Shown: positions 52,916 to 58,631 of the stretch, piece by piece
Layout: every line of letters starts with the position of its first letter
Position numbering within the stretch: position 1 is the first letter of the stretch
DNA from: Thraustochytrium sp. TN22
Taxonomy: Eukaryota > Sar > Bigyra > Thraustochytrida > Thraustochytriidae
Direction: 5' to 3'
DNA: 64,000 nucleotides
NCBI GenBank assembly: GCA_013306675.1
Contig: JABLUY010000113.1
Coordinates: 1-64,000, forward strand
The notes under the pieces: generated by a model
What the model was told of the DNA's origin: nothing
Database searches by the model: none
What the model saw: the letters and a program-made list of their open reading frames with translations, nothing else
Position numbers and translations under genes: made by a program

Positions 52916-54529
52916 TTACAGGCTGAGCAATAAGTGCAGCTCTGGGTCCATGACGGCGTTTGGGAGCCAAGAGATGCGGTCCGCCGCCAGCATGGACTCG
53001 AGCGCATCGCCAGGCAGATGCGTGGTCGTTGGTACAAGGTCGCCCTTGACGAGGTCCGCGTACGCCTTGTCGCGCACCCAAGACGCAGCCAGCGGCGCGC
53101 TGGCAACCTTGGCGGCGCCAATGGAGATGCGCTGGCCCTCCTCCCACTCAGACACCACATGCAAAACATCGCCGGCCGCGGAGACCACCTGCGCAGTGAA
53201 GGTTCCGTGAGGAAGGCCGTCGGCCCAGGTGCCCTGAGCGAGCACGCCTTGCGCAGGGAACTCTAGCTCGCCTCGGCCGTGGCGCTGCGCAGAGCGCCAG
53301 CGGCCGCGAAAGGTGGTCCCATCGCGGGCGCAGACGACGCCCGCGTGCGGCGCGCCGTCGCGCATGAGGCCGGCAAAGACCAGACTGCCCTCGCCCGCGC
53401 CCTCGAGCGCAAAGCCCGAGGTGGATGGCGGGCGAACGCCGCGTGGGGCGGCGGCCTGGTCCCAGGTCCCCACCGCGCAGCGGTCGGCCTTCATCCAGCA
53501 GCCGAAACCGCGCGGCATGCCGTCCTCGTCCAGGAGGCCAACATAGCAGCCATCCTGGGACCGCCGCGTGCCGAGGCCGCCCAGGCGGTCGTCGGTCGCC
53601 TTGCATGAGACCGTGTCGCCGTTTTTGGTCGTGTATCGCGCGCGGCCCTGCAGCTTGCCGTGGAGCCAGAAGCCGTCGAGCTGCTCGCCCTCGCGGTAGG
53701 CGCAGCGCGCGAAGCCGTGCAGCTCGTCGTTCTGGAAATAGCCCTCGACGCGGTCTCCGTTGGAGAATTGCCGCGTGCCCCAGCCGTACGCCTTGCCGGC
53801 TTGCCAGCCGCCGTCGTGCTCGGTGCCATTCGAGAGGCGGCGCTTGCCGCGTCCGTGCGGCACGCCGGCCTGCAGGTCGCCAACATACACGTGGCCCTCG
53901 GCCCAGCGATAGACGCCGCGAACCACCTGGTTGTCCTCAAAGACGCCGTCCACCCGGTCGCCGTTCGCATACACCAGGCTGCCCGGACCGTGCATGCATC
54001 CCGCGCGATAGAAGCCGCTGTGGTAGCTCCCGTTGCTAAACTCGGTGCTGCCCTTCCCTTCGCGCAGGAGTGCCTCGCTGAACTCGCCCTCGTAGACCCC
54101 AAAGCTGGCGCGCACCACGCCCACGCCCACCATCGCGTCGCCTTCCCAGACGCCCTCGAAGACCATGCCGTCCACCTCCCGCGTCTCGCCTCGCCACGAC
54201 CCGCTCCTGCGCGCGCGTCGTCGGCTGCCGCCCGCGGACGACTTGCGCCGCGGCCGCATGCCCACGTCGGGCGACGCCCCCGCTGTCCTCGCCTTGCCGG
54301 CGCCCTCCAGCTCCTCGTCGTCGTCGGCCTTCCCGGCGCCCGCGAGCTCTCCCGGCGCCGCCGCGCGCGTTTCGGCCTTGGTCGCCGCCGCTCTCGCGCT
54401 ACCTGCGCTGCCGCCGCCGCTGCCGCCGCTGCTCCTGCGTCTGCCGCCGCCGCCGCCGCCGCCGCCGCCGCGCGCGTCCTGCACGCCCGCGGTACGCCCG
54501 CGGCCCGCGCCGCCGCGGCTCCTGCGCAT
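52916..54529 (-). CDS. MORN-repeat protein
   Basis: The protein has 537 residues. About the first 115 are Gly/Ser/Arg/Ala low complexity. The rest is a run of MORN units (membrane occupation and recognition nexus) of about 23 residues: 'VYEGEFSEALLREGKGSTEF', 'YHSGFYRAGCMHGPGSLVY', 'VYVGDLQAGVPHGRGKRRL', 'DGGWQAGKAYGWGTRQF' and 'VEGYFQNDELHGFARCAY'. Some later units are degenerate. MORN proteins bind membranes or act as scaffolds at basal bodies, division sites and junctions; no enzyme domain is attached. A short C-terminal region ('WLPNAVMDPELHLLLSL') has no match I know. The start at 54529 is one choice; other ATGs exist in the low-complexity part (for example near 54258). It is divergent from the TIR-like/TPR gene. 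Confidence 0.85.
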   Translation of the reverse strand: MRRSRGGAGRGRTAGVQDARGGGGGGGGGRRRSSGGSGGGSAGSARAAATKAETRAAAPGELAGAGKADDDEELEGAGKARTAGASPDVGMRPRRKSSAGGSRRRARRSGSWRGETREVDGMVFEGVWEGDAMVGVGVVRASFGVYEGEFSEALLREGKGSTEFSNGSYHSGFYRAGCMHGPGSLVYANGDRVDGVFEDNQVVRGVYRWAEGHVYVGDLQAGVPHGRGKRRLSNGTEHDGGWQAGKAYGWGTRQFSNGDRVEGYFQNDELHGFARCAYREGEQLDGFWLHGKLQGRARYTTKNGDTVSCKATDDRLGGLGTRRSQDGCYVGLLDEDGMPRGFGCWMKADRCAVGTWDQAAAPRGVRPPSTSGFALEGAGEGSLVFAGLMRDGAPHAGVVCARDGTTFRGRWRSAQRHGRGELEFPAQGVLAQGTWADGLPHGTFTAQVVSAAGDVLHVVSEWEEGQRISIGAAKVASAPLAASWVRDKAYADLVKGDLVPTTTHLPGDALESMLAADRISWLPNAVMDPELHLLLSL

Positions 54530-54887
54530 GCGGCCGCCCGCGCGCCGCAGCGCCGCAGCAGCGCCGCGCGCCGCGCGCCGCGCGCCCGCGCGCCGCGCGC
54601 GCCGCGCGCCCGCGCGGCCGCGCGAGCGAAGGAAGCCAGGGGTCTGCCGCCGCGCCGGCCGCCGCGCCGCGCGCCTCTACGTGACACGGCCATGCCTTGT
54701 GCAGCGGCAGCCTCGCCATGGGCGAGCCATTCTGATTTCAAAACGCGGCGGCGCGCGGGCGCGGGCGCGGGCGCGGCGCGGGCGGGCGCGGGCGGGCGCG
54801 GGCGGGCGCGAGCGCGGCGCGGGCGCGGCGCGGCGCGGTCGGCGCGATCGGCGCGGCGCGGCGCGGGCCGCGGCGCGGGCCAGCACC
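54530..54887. promoter_or_regulatory. Divergent spacer between MORN and TIR-like/TPR genes
   Basis: 358 bp of GCGCG-rich sequence. Near the plus-strand start it has GGCGCGGGCGC repeats (about 54752-54830) and GCGCGGCGCGG runs. It likely holds promoters for both genes. Confidence 0.45.
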
Positions 54888-57800
54888 ATGGCGGCGGCGG
54901 AGGGGGCTGCGGACGAGGCGGCGGCCGGCGAGGGCGCGGCGGAGAACGAGGTGATGGGCGTGAGCATGGAGTTCCTGCTGGAGTGGATGAGCATGTACAC
55001 GAGCTACACGACGGCGGAGATATGCGAGGCGGTGCGCAAGAAGACGGCGGCGAGGAGGTGCGCCTTCGTGGAGCTGCTGGCGGAGCAGGAGGAGCACGCG
55101 GATAATGTGGGGCCGGCAAGCCTGTACCTGTGCCACGGGTGGGCGCACTCTTTCCACGACACCGTCATGGCGGTGCAGACGCACTACCTGGAGTTCCCTG
55201 ACGTGCGGATGGACGAGACCTTTGTGTGGATCGACATCTTGTGCGTGAACCAGCACGAGCTGGAGGAGAGCTTGGACGACCTGGAGGCAGCAGCACAGCG
55301 CATCAAGGCGGCGCAGGCGCTGATTGAGAGCATCGGCTGCACGATCGTGGCGATGCCCTTTCCCGTGGCGGTCGCAGAGGACGAGGGCGAAGAGGGCGCG
55401 GGCGGCTCTTCGGCGCCGCTGACCATCGCCAGGCCGCCCCTGCCACCGCTCCCGTTCTCGTCCTCGTCCTCATCCTCGTTGGTGTCGTCGGCGCACTCCG
55501 AACAGGAGGGCGAGCAGCGGCAGGGCAACGCGGGGTCCATTCTGCGGCGCGCCTGGTGCCTGTGGGAGATCCTGTGCAGCAACCCGCAGACCACGGTGGT
55601 GGCGCTCTTCGCGGGCGAGCGGCGGCAGTTCTTGCGGGACCTGGAGCATCAGCCGGCCGTGGTCCTGGCGATGCTGCGCGCAGCGACGCGGTGCACGATG
55701 AGCGAGAGCAGCTCGCCAGCCGACACGGACCGGCTCTTGCACACCTTCGAGGACTGGACGTTGTCAGGTGTCAAGGCCGGGCCGGAGCAGATCGGGTTCG
55801 ACCTGGTGGATGAGCGCGTGCGGCTGTCGCTGAGCCGGTGGGTGGCCGAGGAGGCCTGGACGCTGCTGCTGAGCAAGCAGCGCGACATCGAGCGCGAGTA
55901 CGCAGATCCCTTCGTGCAGCCGCGCAACCCGGGGGGGCAGAGTCTGCGCAACAAGCTGCGGCAGCAAGCCATCTGCATGTACAAGATAATCGCAGCGTTC
56001 AGGGAGGAGAACATGGTGCCGTATGCGATCGAGCTGTGCTCGGCCATGATGCACGAGCACGAACGCTTCCGCGGGCAGCTGGACTATGATCAGACCACGG
56101 CAGCCAACATCTGCCAGCTGGCGAAGCTGCACGAGGAGGCCGGCAACGTGCAGGAGGCCTTGGGTCTGTACAAGAACTGCCTGGAGCTGAGCCGGCGCAT
56201 CGCGCCCGAGTTTGTGGACGATGCGCTGCAGGGCATGGGCCAGTGCAAGTGGCATCTGGGCGATCGCGCGGGCGCCGTGGAGGCCTTCCGCGAGATCGTC
56301 GAGATGGCGCGCCGCGCGCTGCAGGCGCGATCTAGTAGCCTGAGCCGGCGCTCTCTCTCCAACGCGCTCTTCGTACTGGGGACGCATGTACGCGAGATGA
56401 GCCCGGGCAAGGACGGTCTGGGCGAGGCCATCGCGCTCTTCGAGGAGGCCATGAATCTGGCCGCTGACCTTTACGCGGAGGAGGAGTCCGAGGAGACCAT
56501 TGTGGGCCTGCGTGAACTAGCGCACCTGCTCTGGCAGCAGGACCGCTTCAAGGAGGCTGCCGCGTACTACGAGCGCCTGCTGACGCTGCAGGAAGTGTGC
56601 ACGCGCGAGGGCGGCGAGATCTTGATCCAGGACCCGGACTCGGACGACCTGCCGCCGCGTACAATGGGCGAGGACGACGTGAGCACGGACTTTCGCAATC
56701 TGGCTCGCTGCCTCATGAACGTGAGCGAGGAGGAGAACCCGCGCGCTCTCAAGGAGGCGGCCGAGTTCTGCCGCGCGGCGCTGGACCTGGACATCAAGCG
56801 CCACGGCAGCGTGAGCCCCACGACGCTCAAGGATCTGAAGCTCCTGGCGGAGATCGAGCAGCGCCGCGGCAACACGGACCGCAGCGAGGCGCTCCAGGCG
56901 AAGCTGACGGACATTCAGGTCCACGTGCAGCGCTCGCGTTTGCGCGCCGGCCCGCTCGTGGAGCTGCGCGAGTCGCACTTTTCCGAGTTCGAGCGGGCGC
57001 TGCCGGGCCTGCTGGCCGACATCAAGTCGACCGGCCGCTATGAGGAGGTAGCGGATGGGCTCACGAACCTGAGCGCCTTTAATGAGCAGCGCGGCGCCTT
57101 CGTCAAGGCTATTGCGTATCTGGGTGAGGCCGCCAAACTCCTGCTTTTTGCCTTGCGCCGCTGGGACACGGACGCCAGCGCGCAGTGGCGCGCGCGCGCA
57201 CTGCACCGCGAGCTGCGCGACGACCTGGTGCACCTCTTCCAGCTCTTCCGCATAGCGGACAAGGTGGAGGCGCTGGTGCCGCACTGCTCAAACTTTGTCA
57301 AGATGGTCAAGTTCTACTTCCGCGACGATTCCGGCAGCGACAACGCCATTCTGGCGCTCGATGTGTACGGCCAACTTCTGCACAGCACCAACCACCGGCG
57401 CGAGGCGGCGCAAGCGCTCGAGGAGGCTGCTCAGCTGGCGGATCAGGTCTACGGAGAGGCGCCCAACCAGCAGTGGGTCGATCTTCTGCAGCACCTCTCG
57501 CTCGTCTACAAGGCGCTCGACGACAGGGAGAAATACATGAAGCTGAACGAGCGCATCTTGGAGATGCACTCAAAGCTGCACGGCCGCGACTCCGAGGACA
57601 CTGCCGCCGTGCTCTACCAGCTCGCGGCATCCCAGCTCGCCCTTGCCGAGGAGTGCGCCGATCCGCGCGACGCCATTTCGCGCTCGCTCTGCGCCAAGGC
57701 AGGCGCGCTCCTCGAAGAAGCCATCGCGCTGCTGCAGTCCTTCGCGGACGCCGCTTACCCGGGCGACGCCATCGAGGAGAACATTGCCATTTTTCAGCGC

Positions 57801-58631
57801 GAGCTTGCCGGCGTCTACCTCACGCAGGGCCGTGTGCACGATGCGCTCGAACAGATGCTGCAGGTGGTCGACCTGCACGAGCTGCTCTACGACCAGGAGG
57901 ACCCGCACGACTCGCTTGCCATCCAACAGGACTGCTACTTTCTTGAGCAGCTCAGGCAGCGTGCGGCGCGGCCCGTCGCGGACGCTGCTCCCGACGAGGG
58001 CCCTGATCTGGACGACGCCGGGGCAGCAGCCGCCCTTGCCCTTGCCGCCAAGGAGGCTAATGCGGTCGGCCAGTCGAATGGCCACCACGAGCCGGCGGAG
58101 ACGCAGGCGGCCGAGCCCGAGACCTCCGCGACCTCTGCGCCAGACGAGGGCGCGGACAAGAAGGAGTCTGAGCAGGAGTCCGAGCAGGAGTCTGAGCAGG
58201 AGTCTGAGCAGGAGCTAGAAAATGGCGAAACGGAGGGAGACCGCAACGCGGTCAAGGCAAATGGCGCGACCGCGGCAGGCCACGTCGGGTTGCGCGACAA
58301 GGAGAAAGAGGCTGCCACATCCAAGCCAGAGGCGGAGGCCGAGCTCGAGCCTGGGCTCGCCCAGGCGCTGGAGCAGCCCGGGGATTCGCCGGCGGTGCCT
58401 CAGGTCGCGGCCGCGGAGGCAGGGGCGGCAGTGCGCCCGCCGCCTGCCGCTTCTGCCGTTTCTGTCGCTGATCCTGCCGCTCTTCCTGCTGCCGATGCTG
58501 AAGCTCGTCGGAGTGCGCCGTCTTCACTAGGTGCGTCGGCGGCGTACTCAGCGCCGCCAGATCTGCCGGCTGCGACGGGGCCCAGGGCGTCCTCGCAAGC
58601 GCCCAAGTCGTCTTGCTGCCTGTTGAGCTGA
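54888..58631 (+). CDS. TIR-like/TPR protein with C-terminal CaaX box
   Basis: The protein has 1247 residues. The N-terminal domain (about 30-245) has the layout of TIR-like domains: 'ASLYLCHGWAHSFHDTV', then 'FVWIDILCVNQH', 'ALIESIGCTIVAMPFP' and 'RRAWCLWEILCS'. The last places Glu227 where TIR NADases have their catalytic Glu (WCLDEL). A Ser-rich loop of about 55 residues interrupts it. Residues about 400-1020 are helical TPR-like repeats ('LAKLHEEAGNVQEALGLYKN', 'LAHLLWQQDRFKEAAAYYER'). An acidic tail contains four ESEQ repeats, and the last residues are Cys-Cys-Leu-Leu-Ser: a CLLS CaaX box with an extra Cys, fit for farnesylation and palmitoylation. TPR proteins with such a front domain occur in protists, function unknown. 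The TIR relation and NADase activity are inferences. Confidence 0.78.
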   Translation: MAAAEGAADEAAAGEGAAENEVMGVSMEFLLEWMSMYTSYTTAEICEAVRKKTAARRCAFVELLAEQEEHADNVGPASLYLCHGWAHSFHDTVMAVQTHYLEFPDVRMDETFVWIDILCVNQHELEESLDDLEAAAQRIKAAQALIESIGCTIVAMPFPVAVAEDEGEEGAGGSSAPLTIARPPLPPLPFSSSSSSSLVSSAHSEQEGEQRQGNAGSILRRAWCLWEILCSNPQTTVVALFAGERRQFLRDLEHQPAVVLAMLRAATRCTMSESSSPADTDRLLHTFEDWTLSGVKAGPEQIGFDLVDERVRLSLSRWVAEEAWTLLLSKQRDIEREYADPFVQPRNPGGQSLRNKLRQQAICMYKIIAAFREENMVPYAIELCSAMMHEHERFRGQLDYDQTTAANICQLAKLHEEAGNVQEALGLYKNCLELSRRIAPEFVDDALQGMGQCKWHLGDRAGAVEAFREIVEMARRALQARSSSLSRRSLSNALFVLGTHVREMSPGKDGLGEAIALFEEAMNLAADLYAEEESEETIVGLRELAHLLWQQDRFKEAAAYYERLLTLQEVCTREGGEILIQDPDSDDLPPRTMGEDDVSTDFRNLARCLMNVSEEENPRALKEAAEFCRAALDLDIKRHGSVSPTTLKDLKLLAEIEQRRGNTDRSEALQAKLTDIQVHVQRSRLRAGPLVELRESHFSEFERALPGLLADIKSTGRYEEVADGLTNLSAFNEQRGAFVKAIAYLGEAAKLLLFALRRWDTDASAQWRARALHRELRDDLVHLFQLFRIADKVEALVPHCSNFVKMVKFYFRDDSGSDNAILALDVYGQLLHSTNHRREAAQALEEAAQLADQVYGEAPNQQWVDLLQHLSLVYKALDDREKYMKLNERILEMHSKLHGRDSEDTAAVLYQLAASQLALAEECADPRDAISRSLCAKAGALLEEAIALLQSFADAAYPGDAIEENIAIFQRELAGVYLTQGRVHDALEQMLQVVDLHELLYDQEDPHDSLAIQQDCYFLEQLRQRAARPVADAAPDEGPDLDDAGAAAALALAAKEANAVGQSNGHHEPAETQAAEPETSATSAPDEGADKKESEQESEQESEQESEQELENGETEGDRNAVKANGATAAGHVGLRDKEKEAATSKPEAEAELEPGLAQALEQPGDSPAVPQVAAAEAGAAVRPPPAASAVSVADPAALPAADAEARRSAPSSLGASAAYSAPPDLPAATGPRASSQAPKSSCCLLS
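58163..58216 (+). repeat. GAGCAGGAGTCT 12-bp repeat encoding (Glu-Ser-Glu-Gln)n
   Basis: About four copies of a 12-bp unit lie in the acidic tail of the TIR-like/TPR gene. Confidence 0.9.

Follow-up and report, generated by a model that had tools for sequence, protein, structure and literature searches.

A divergent HET/TIR-like protein with tetratricopeptide repeats and its large family of paralogs in the protist Thraustochytrium sp. TN22

The window analyzed here is a 64,000-nt stretch of DNA (positions 1 to 64,000, forward strand, of contig JABLUY010000113.1) from Thraustochytrium sp. TN22. It contains a gene for a protein with an N-terminal domain resembling HET and TIR domains, followed by tetratricopeptide repeats (TPRs). 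The gene is an uninterrupted open frame from 54888 to 58631 on the + strand, encoding 1,247 amino acids and ending in SSCCLLS-stop. Its start ATG is embedded in ACCATGG; the same frame stays open in the 5' direction to position 54165, this upstream part being GC-rich and of low complexity. An earlier note on this DNA had described a single frame combining four TIR-like motifs, TPRs and a terminal CCLLS. All of these were recovered from the sequence, with the four N-terminal blocks in order and the Glu of AWCLWEI correctly numbered as residue 227. A DNA pattern for the second block (WxD..C.NQ) matches once in the window and in 0 of 100 shuffles. The third block (IGCTIVAMPFP) is split from the WCLWE block by a low-complexity insert, and about the last 200 residues of the protein, after ~residue 1046, form a low-complexity tail. 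The features are:

54888..58631, + strand: whole gene, comprising HET/TIR-like domain, TPR solenoid, low-complexity tail and CCLLS
54951..55817, + strand: HET/TIR-like domain, ~residues 22-310, delimited by the extent of similarity to 41 other paralog domains and by a sub-threshold HET match (E 0.021)
55122..55142, + strand: LYLCHGW, residues 79-85, candidate first TIR strand; relatives have FVSHAW
55224..55253, + strand: VWIDILCVNQ, residues 113-122, HET-type WxDxxCxxQ block; W114 and D116 in 42/42 paralogs, Q122 in 40/42
Residues 149-159: IGCTIVAMPFP
55365..55532, + strand: low-complexity insert, ~residues 160-215, shorter or missing in paralogs in the alignments
55551..55571, + strand: AWCLWEI, residues 222-228, with W223, C224 and the candidate catalytic Glu227 (codon 55566-55568) in 42/42
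56076..57911, + strand: TPR region, ~residues 397-1008; repeats degenerate, without a recent array
58162..58214, + strand: 12-bp tandem repeat in the tail, encoding acidic ESEQ units
58614..58628, + strand: CaaX-like C-terminal Cys-Cys-Leu-Leu-Ser, not conserved in the family

The only Pfam models scoring above cut-off on the window protein are TPRs. TPR_12 (PF13424) matches at 4.2e-18 with 65.8 bits (cut-off 30.1) in six stretches covering ~residues 397-1008, which bears out the proposed repeat body. TPRs above cut-off also follow the domain in 8 of the 10 other members scanned. No NACHT or NB-ARC domain was listed for the window protein at E values up to 10, nor, among the 25 best families and with an E limit of 0.01, for 10 paralogs (in which the end of the locus cut some stretches short). 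Above cut-off, the whole genome holds at least 2 NB-ARC and at least 7 NACHT matches, as against at least 114 of 128 for TIR_2. On account of these counts, we describe the genome as one in which HET/TIR-like and TIR domains abound and nucleotide-binding oligomerization domain (NOD) switches are few. Several of the TIR_2 matches lie in series on single contigs (C160, C288, C407).

The window gene belongs to a large family. Searches of its own genome yielded 32 matches with the window domain as query, 63 with paralog L024 and 124 with paralog L014, all lower bounds; merging the last set by eye left ~110 places, at least ten pairs of matches looking like one gene. An internal stop was found in 6 of the 124 L014 matches. 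These searches rule out a lone novel protein, and with it the suggestion of the earlier note that the architecture was without precedent: ~110 such domains occur in this genome, and both HET homologs (PMC4986451) and fungal proteins combining HET with TPRs (PMC9153377) are published.

From the ~110 places, 42 distinct paralog domains were read, the others sharing 18-25% identity with the window domain. W114, D116, W223, C224 and Glu227 are identical in 42/42, in rows cut by a pattern that itself demands WC-x-[WFY]-E and a WxD-like block; R221 (41/42), Q122 (40/42) and F89 (40/42) are near-invariant. A less biased count comes from the 60 loci read directly (30 matches of the window domain and 30 of L024, overlapping, 42 distinct): every one has WC-x-x-E, and the second place before its Trp is occupied by R, K or H in 59, by Glu in L072. 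The Glu was also kept in 27/27 loci that the window-domain search had matched only upstream of residue 150. The read loci are the stronger evidence because the letters in question formed part of the pattern by which the 42 rows were cut. Free variation of Glu227 among homologs, named in the earlier note as an outcome that would speak against its proposal, was looked for and not seen.

Two groups of paralogs have features of their own. L052/L087 and L054/L088 group with L075 as a clade apart from the rest of the family (support 99/96). Over the scanned stretches, L052 and L054 matched no Pfam family (E limit 0.01), and by eye the C-terminal parts resemble receiver domains. In L024/L051, with L086 (G000 C449, ~53189-57000, + strand), a paralog has, in frame behind its HET/TIR-like domain, a DNA methylase domain (PF01555, 1.6e-18) as well as a faint TPR match (TPR_12 at 2.1e-5, sub-threshold). 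We know of no HET/TIR-like effector-methylase fusion described before.

Comparison with the HET family (PF06985) gave 11.1 bits (E 0.53) for the whole window protein and 15.6 bits (E 0.021) for the cut-out domain, in both cases below the curated cut-off of 22.5 bits. Weak HET matches occur in 4/42 members, the best being that of the window domain itself. The sole HET protein of the genome above the Pfam cut-off (25.2 bits) is L039:1084-2721, + strand (G000 C110), in which the domain is fused to MORN repeats. Read by eye, L039 has the same three blocks in the same order: FVSHRW, FVWIDFSCIDQ and RRGWIRVEEVLG. Family hidden Markov models (HMMs) built from four alignments rank it 2 or 3 (E 0.001-0.0035) among 692 sequences, namely 9 own-genome TIRs, L039, 502 decoy fragments and 180 shuffles. 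Two of the 502 decoys scored highly, one a true family member from L002, the other a motif-picked chance frame of L085. HET is described as a remote relative of TIR, homologs being reported from stramenopiles, haptophytes, choanoflagellates, green algae and bryophytes (PMC4986451), and the two are said to have a Glu of functional importance in common (PMC9153377). The means by which fungal HET domains kill is given as unknown (PMC10890737).

For TIR, neither PF13676 nor PF01582 is among the 17 Pfam families listed for the 42 members. SEFIR (0.046) and ThsB_TIR (0.18), which we take to be TIR-like families, were matched by one member each. An HMM of the own-genome TIRs met the family with a best E of 3.5, placing 32 of the 42 members within the top 100 of 545. 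With hhalign, the best family alignment (A4) gave P 0.009, its score being reached by 0/100 column-permuted and 11/100 block-permuted controls; direct homology to TIR by this test is suggestive only. PADLOC returned 8 weak matches for the 42 members, 6 of them to ThsB TIR-like models (best 0.0036), and two of 20 members scanned singly matched ThsB models over the WC-x-x-E region. ThsB is part of a bacterial defense system. Matches to NCBIfam, mostly of one member each and some of them to low-complexity adhesins, were set aside. In the plant WCLxE motif the Cys presumably stands three residues before the Glu, as in the window gene. The alpha-C-type Glu of TIRs would correspond, by motif and order, to E227, the residue found in 42/42 distinct paralogs. 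In plant TIRs the alpha-C motif contains the catalytic Glu and, close to it, a Cys required for synthesis of 2',3'-cyclic nucleoside monophosphates (2',3'-cNMP), and neither the Glu nor NADase activity is kept in all TIRs (PMC9153377). The TIR/HET-like N-terminus posited at the outset is weakly supported, by the order of the blocks and by short or marginal profile matches. Kinship with both is suggested, neither homology is statistically secure, and we call the domain HET/TIR-like and file it as neither.

Narrow pattern scans and a tblastn search with one paralog confirmed no prokaryotic or viral relatives. Among five matches of the contig pattern scan, four were short or chance frames; the fifth, L082, is a true relative (HMM E 3e-9 to 6e-8). 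It lies at L082:4258-4506, + strand, and is truncated by the end of a 4.5-kb contig that was binned as Flavobacteriales. Elsewhere this contig has genes of bacterial appearance by eye and 35% G+C, against 57% in the family-like end; the relative may be either a chimeric contig end or a bacterial copy.

The repeats of a number of sister genes differ from those of the window gene in being nearly identical to one another. These DIVERSIFYING repeats are tandem 126-bp TPR units, 84-97% alike in DNA, and were found in 12 of the 42 loci (L020, L023, L026, L027, L029, L030, L031, L032, L034, L035, L036 and L064), a lower bound since loci end ~1.5 kb from the match. The same 12 pass the published test of internal conservation (85% over 100 residues). 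High internal conservation has been reported for 21.2% of TPRs in fungal NOD-like receptors (NLRs), and, of such repeats, for 0.4% in green plants, 0.8% in animals and 1.2% in dikarya (PMC4986451), rates which count repeats where ours counts loci and which thus have a different denominator. The units analyzed belong to three types that differ in consensus (43 units from 7 loci, 20 from 6 loci and 10 from a single locus; values below are given in this order). Published hypervariable TPR positions include 2, 5, 9, 12 and 13 (PMC1261162), equivalent to unit positions 31, 34, 38, 41 and 42 when anchored by eye on canonical TPR residues. At these groove positions, 50%, 65% and 76% of repeat pairs within a gene have different residues, versus 13%, 10% and 17% elsewhere. 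Codons for the same residue are silently different in just 3.2%, 7.5% and 12.0%. An exhaustive count over the 850,668 five-position sets gave 490, 42 and 8 that perform at least equally. When all seven published positions are used, 1,178, 265 and 333 out of 300,000 randomly drawn sets reach the same level; for the six positions contacting ligand in HOP the numbers are 13, 68 and 15 out of 300,000. The groove positions were chosen after the variability profile had been seen, initially as five of the seven published positions and later as all seven plus the six HOP contacts. In a tree of the family, 7 of the 12 array genes fall in one recent cluster and 4 in another, with L064 apart. A crude ungapped count of the ratio of nonsynonymous to synonymous differences (pN/pS) in the effector domain gave 0.50 for the former cluster (8 loci, one without an array) and 0.95 for the latter (4 loci). 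Arrays were also noticed in L002 (G000 C7), where 12.4 copies, 97% alike, lie behind the family motif, and in L089 (G000 C111:458700-461700), where 8 occurrences of one 12-mer are spaced 126 bp apart.

Taken from the domain order, the invariant residues, the size of the family and the concentration of TPR variation at the groove in the sister genes, all of them observed, our preferred interpretation is that of an intracellular sensor operating without a NOD, to which we assign a probability of about 0.45. The TPR solenoid would bind a target, either a foreign or altered-self protein or a peptide, and binding would gather several copies of the receptor. The N-terminal HET/TIR-like domains, once clustered, would become active as enzymes through the invariant WC-x-x-E. 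The reaction would most likely be cleavage of NAD+ through Glu227, possibly with additional synthesis of 2',3'-cNMP, which would need the adjacent invariant Cys224; the reaction would either signal for cell death or bring it about. Such a sensor implies a TIR-like fold, catalysis, oligomerization and a role in immunity or self/non-self recognition. Extended to the genome as a whole, the interpretation can be put forward tentatively, at somewhat short of even odds: ~110 NOD-less HET/TIR-like receptors would stand beside more than 100 canonical TIR matches, with near-identical 42-residue TPR arrays that diversify at the ligand groove behind an unchanging effector motif. This would amount to recognition by repeat shuffling without the NLR switch, with the window gene as an old, stable member and perhaps a membrane-anchored hub.

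A series of results weighs against this interpretation. Family HMMs score the own-genome TIRs at E 4 or worse. In hhalign comparisons with TIRs, SHAW, W.D and C..E are aligned in the correct order at a probability of 4.6% at best, and the scores of two other family alignments were reached by 2/100 column-permuted and 20/100 block-permuted controls (A1) and by 7/100 and 83/100 (A5). Profile searches of PDB produced no significant match, and a single-sequence AlphaFold2 prediction of the window domain had a mean confidence (pLDDT) of 34, unusable as a fold model. The commonest weak Pfam match in the family is not HET (4/42) but PepSY_2 (9/42). The family HMM match to L039 spans just ~23-58 residues around the WxD block, and the chance frame of L085, picked by our own pattern scan for that block, scores E 0.00022-0.0085; the tie to HET, made up of one block and a reading by eye, is weakly supported. 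Regarding the repeats, variability matching that of the groove is also seen in all three types at position 18, which does not belong to the published groove set, and likewise at 28 in one type and at 35, 39 and 40 in one or more; at 18 and 28 it perhaps reflects a surface between 42-residue repeats. Over the ten positions that vary most, plain pN/pS reaches only 1.4, 0.7 and 1.2. In the array clades the motif alone is fixed, strong constraint on the whole effector domain not being supported by pN/pS. A recent array is absent from the window gene itself, whose best self-identity is 0.12 and whose TPR part lacks long tandem repeats. In the tree it occupies a long branch with a weak connection to L010 (84/14, marked as a long-branch join). 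For these two reasons the evidence of diversification comes from its sisters; we take the gene for an old member of the family with degenerate TPRs. Finally, a CaaX box is ruled out as a family trait. CLLS, of the C-a-a-X form, lies at the very C-terminus of the window protein, and a similar ending was seen in 1 of 25 other complete C-termini (L064, HCSIC) and in 0 of 3 more, hence in 1/28.

In an alternative explanation, the domain might lack catalysis, having lost it or never had it, and serve assembly only, with the TPRs binding cytoskeletal or trafficking cargo much as kinesin light chains do. The TPR types matched in Pfam (TPR_12 and TPR_10), the degenerate repeats of the window gene, the lack of significant TIR homology and the existence of TIRs without the Glu or NADase activity (PMC9153377) would fit such a scaffold. 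We nonetheless regard it as unlikely: the W, C and E are unchanged in 42 copies that share just 18-25% identity with the window domain, an invariance indicative of a chemical role, and change focused on the groove of near-identical arrays is ill-suited to a fixed cargo. It is still more improbable, in our estimate, that the domain induces cell death like a fungal HET by chemistry other than that of a TIR NADase. The WxDxxCxxQ block does resemble that of HET, and the best HET score in the family (0.021) belongs to the window domain; yet HET itself is reported to share the functional Glu with TIRs (PMC9153377), the family's WC-x-x-E also has the plant-TIR Cys, and the weak matches to ThsB models are to TIR-like proteins.

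The groove signal could be explained without selection for recognition, by positions that tolerate change in any TPR, together with gene conversion. The same positions are variable in TPRs generally (PMC1261162), repeat pairs are not independent, variation extends to positions 18, 28, 35, 39 and 40 outside the groove set, and synonymous counts rise at the same codons, as the pN/pS values given above reflect. Part of this rise may be due to C- or G-ending codons that have to change when the residue does. With silent differences of 3.2%, 7.5% and 12.0% set against groove residue differences of 50%, 65% and 76%, and with three repeat types in agreement and most other positions nearly fixed, this explanation appears doubtful. 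A further proposal, compatible with the NOD-less sensor, is that CCLLS is a working farnesylation signal, with added palmitoylation, and that anchoring in the membrane is central to this member. The window protein has an exact CaaX-like end behind its low-complexity tail, and L064 ends in HCSIC; the absence of such a box from 27 of the 28 other C-termini makes the proposal rather unlikely. The farnesylation box, counted as part of the architecture in the earlier note, is not supported as such, the terminal CLLS being missing from relatives. Prenylation, presumably at Cys1244 and with membrane anchoring as its result, may be peculiar to the window gene.

The neighbors of the window gene are a MORN protein gene arranged head to head with it (52916-54529, - strand) and genes for a Ysc84 (SYLF) protein, an AAA ATPase and a zinc carboxypeptidase. 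MORN repeats are also those fused to the above-cut-off HET of L039. The window has 61-75% G+C in 2-kb steps, and the assembly comprises 37.9 Mb in 453 contigs. A profile search of the assembly for chlorophyll-binding protein gave no match, and a frame for a polyunsaturated fatty acid synthase of the PfaA type was found above the model cut-off (2,539.7 bits summed). Together with the long open frames, these findings suggest a thraustochytrid-like protist, in agreement with the protist host that had been supposed.

Immunity in protists is little known. Viewed alone, the window gene looks like a divergent member in which a domain of a known kind is joined to a repeat of a known kind; the more interesting object is the family, which occurs in a protist, lacks a NOD and has arrays that vary at the ligand groove. 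If the sensor interpretation is correct, repeat-based non-self recognition with a HET/TIR-like effector exists outside the fungi and without a NOD switch, which would bear on the form of early eukaryotic receptors. Because many divergent copies keep the same Trp-Cys-x-x-Glu, the question whether HET-type domains act as TIR-like enzymes becomes testable here. In the titles and opening lines of abstracts listed by searches of open-license PMC papers, no description of a HET/TIR-like plus TPR architecture in protists was found.

Among known systems, TPR proteins of the kinesin light chain type resemble the window protein in their 42-residue TPR_12/TPR_10 units; they presumably carry an N-terminal coiled coil where it has the HET/TIR-like domain. 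With the ThsB TIR-like protein of Thoeris the likeness consists of weak HMM matches from 5 or 6 of the 42 family members, matches that are not significant given the number of tests. Plant TIRs (TNL, TNP) have the Trp-Cys-x-x-Glu in common with the family, the Glu and neighboring Cys being functional in the plant proteins (PMC9153377); the family differs in giving no significant profile match, in its HET-type second block and in lacking NB-ARC. HET domains (PF06985), with homologs in Emiliania, Ectocarpus, Thalassiosira, Salpingoeca and Physcomitrella (PMC4986451), share the WxDxxCxxQ block, a Glu-bearing W..E block and the N-terminal position before repeats, whereas the window domain scores below the gathering threshold, has WC-x-x-E in place of the GWIRVEE of L039 and comes without a NOD. 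Fungal proteins in which HET and TPRs accompany a nucleotide-binding domain have been described (PMC9153377). Compared to the fungal HET/NACHT or NB-ARC NLRs (HNWD and others, with WD, ANK or TPR repeats; PMC4986451), the family described here is non-fungal and has no nucleotide-binding switch, and the window gene has no recent array; what they share is an effector joined to 42-residue repeats and, in part of the family (12/42 loci here), high internal conservation of these repeats.

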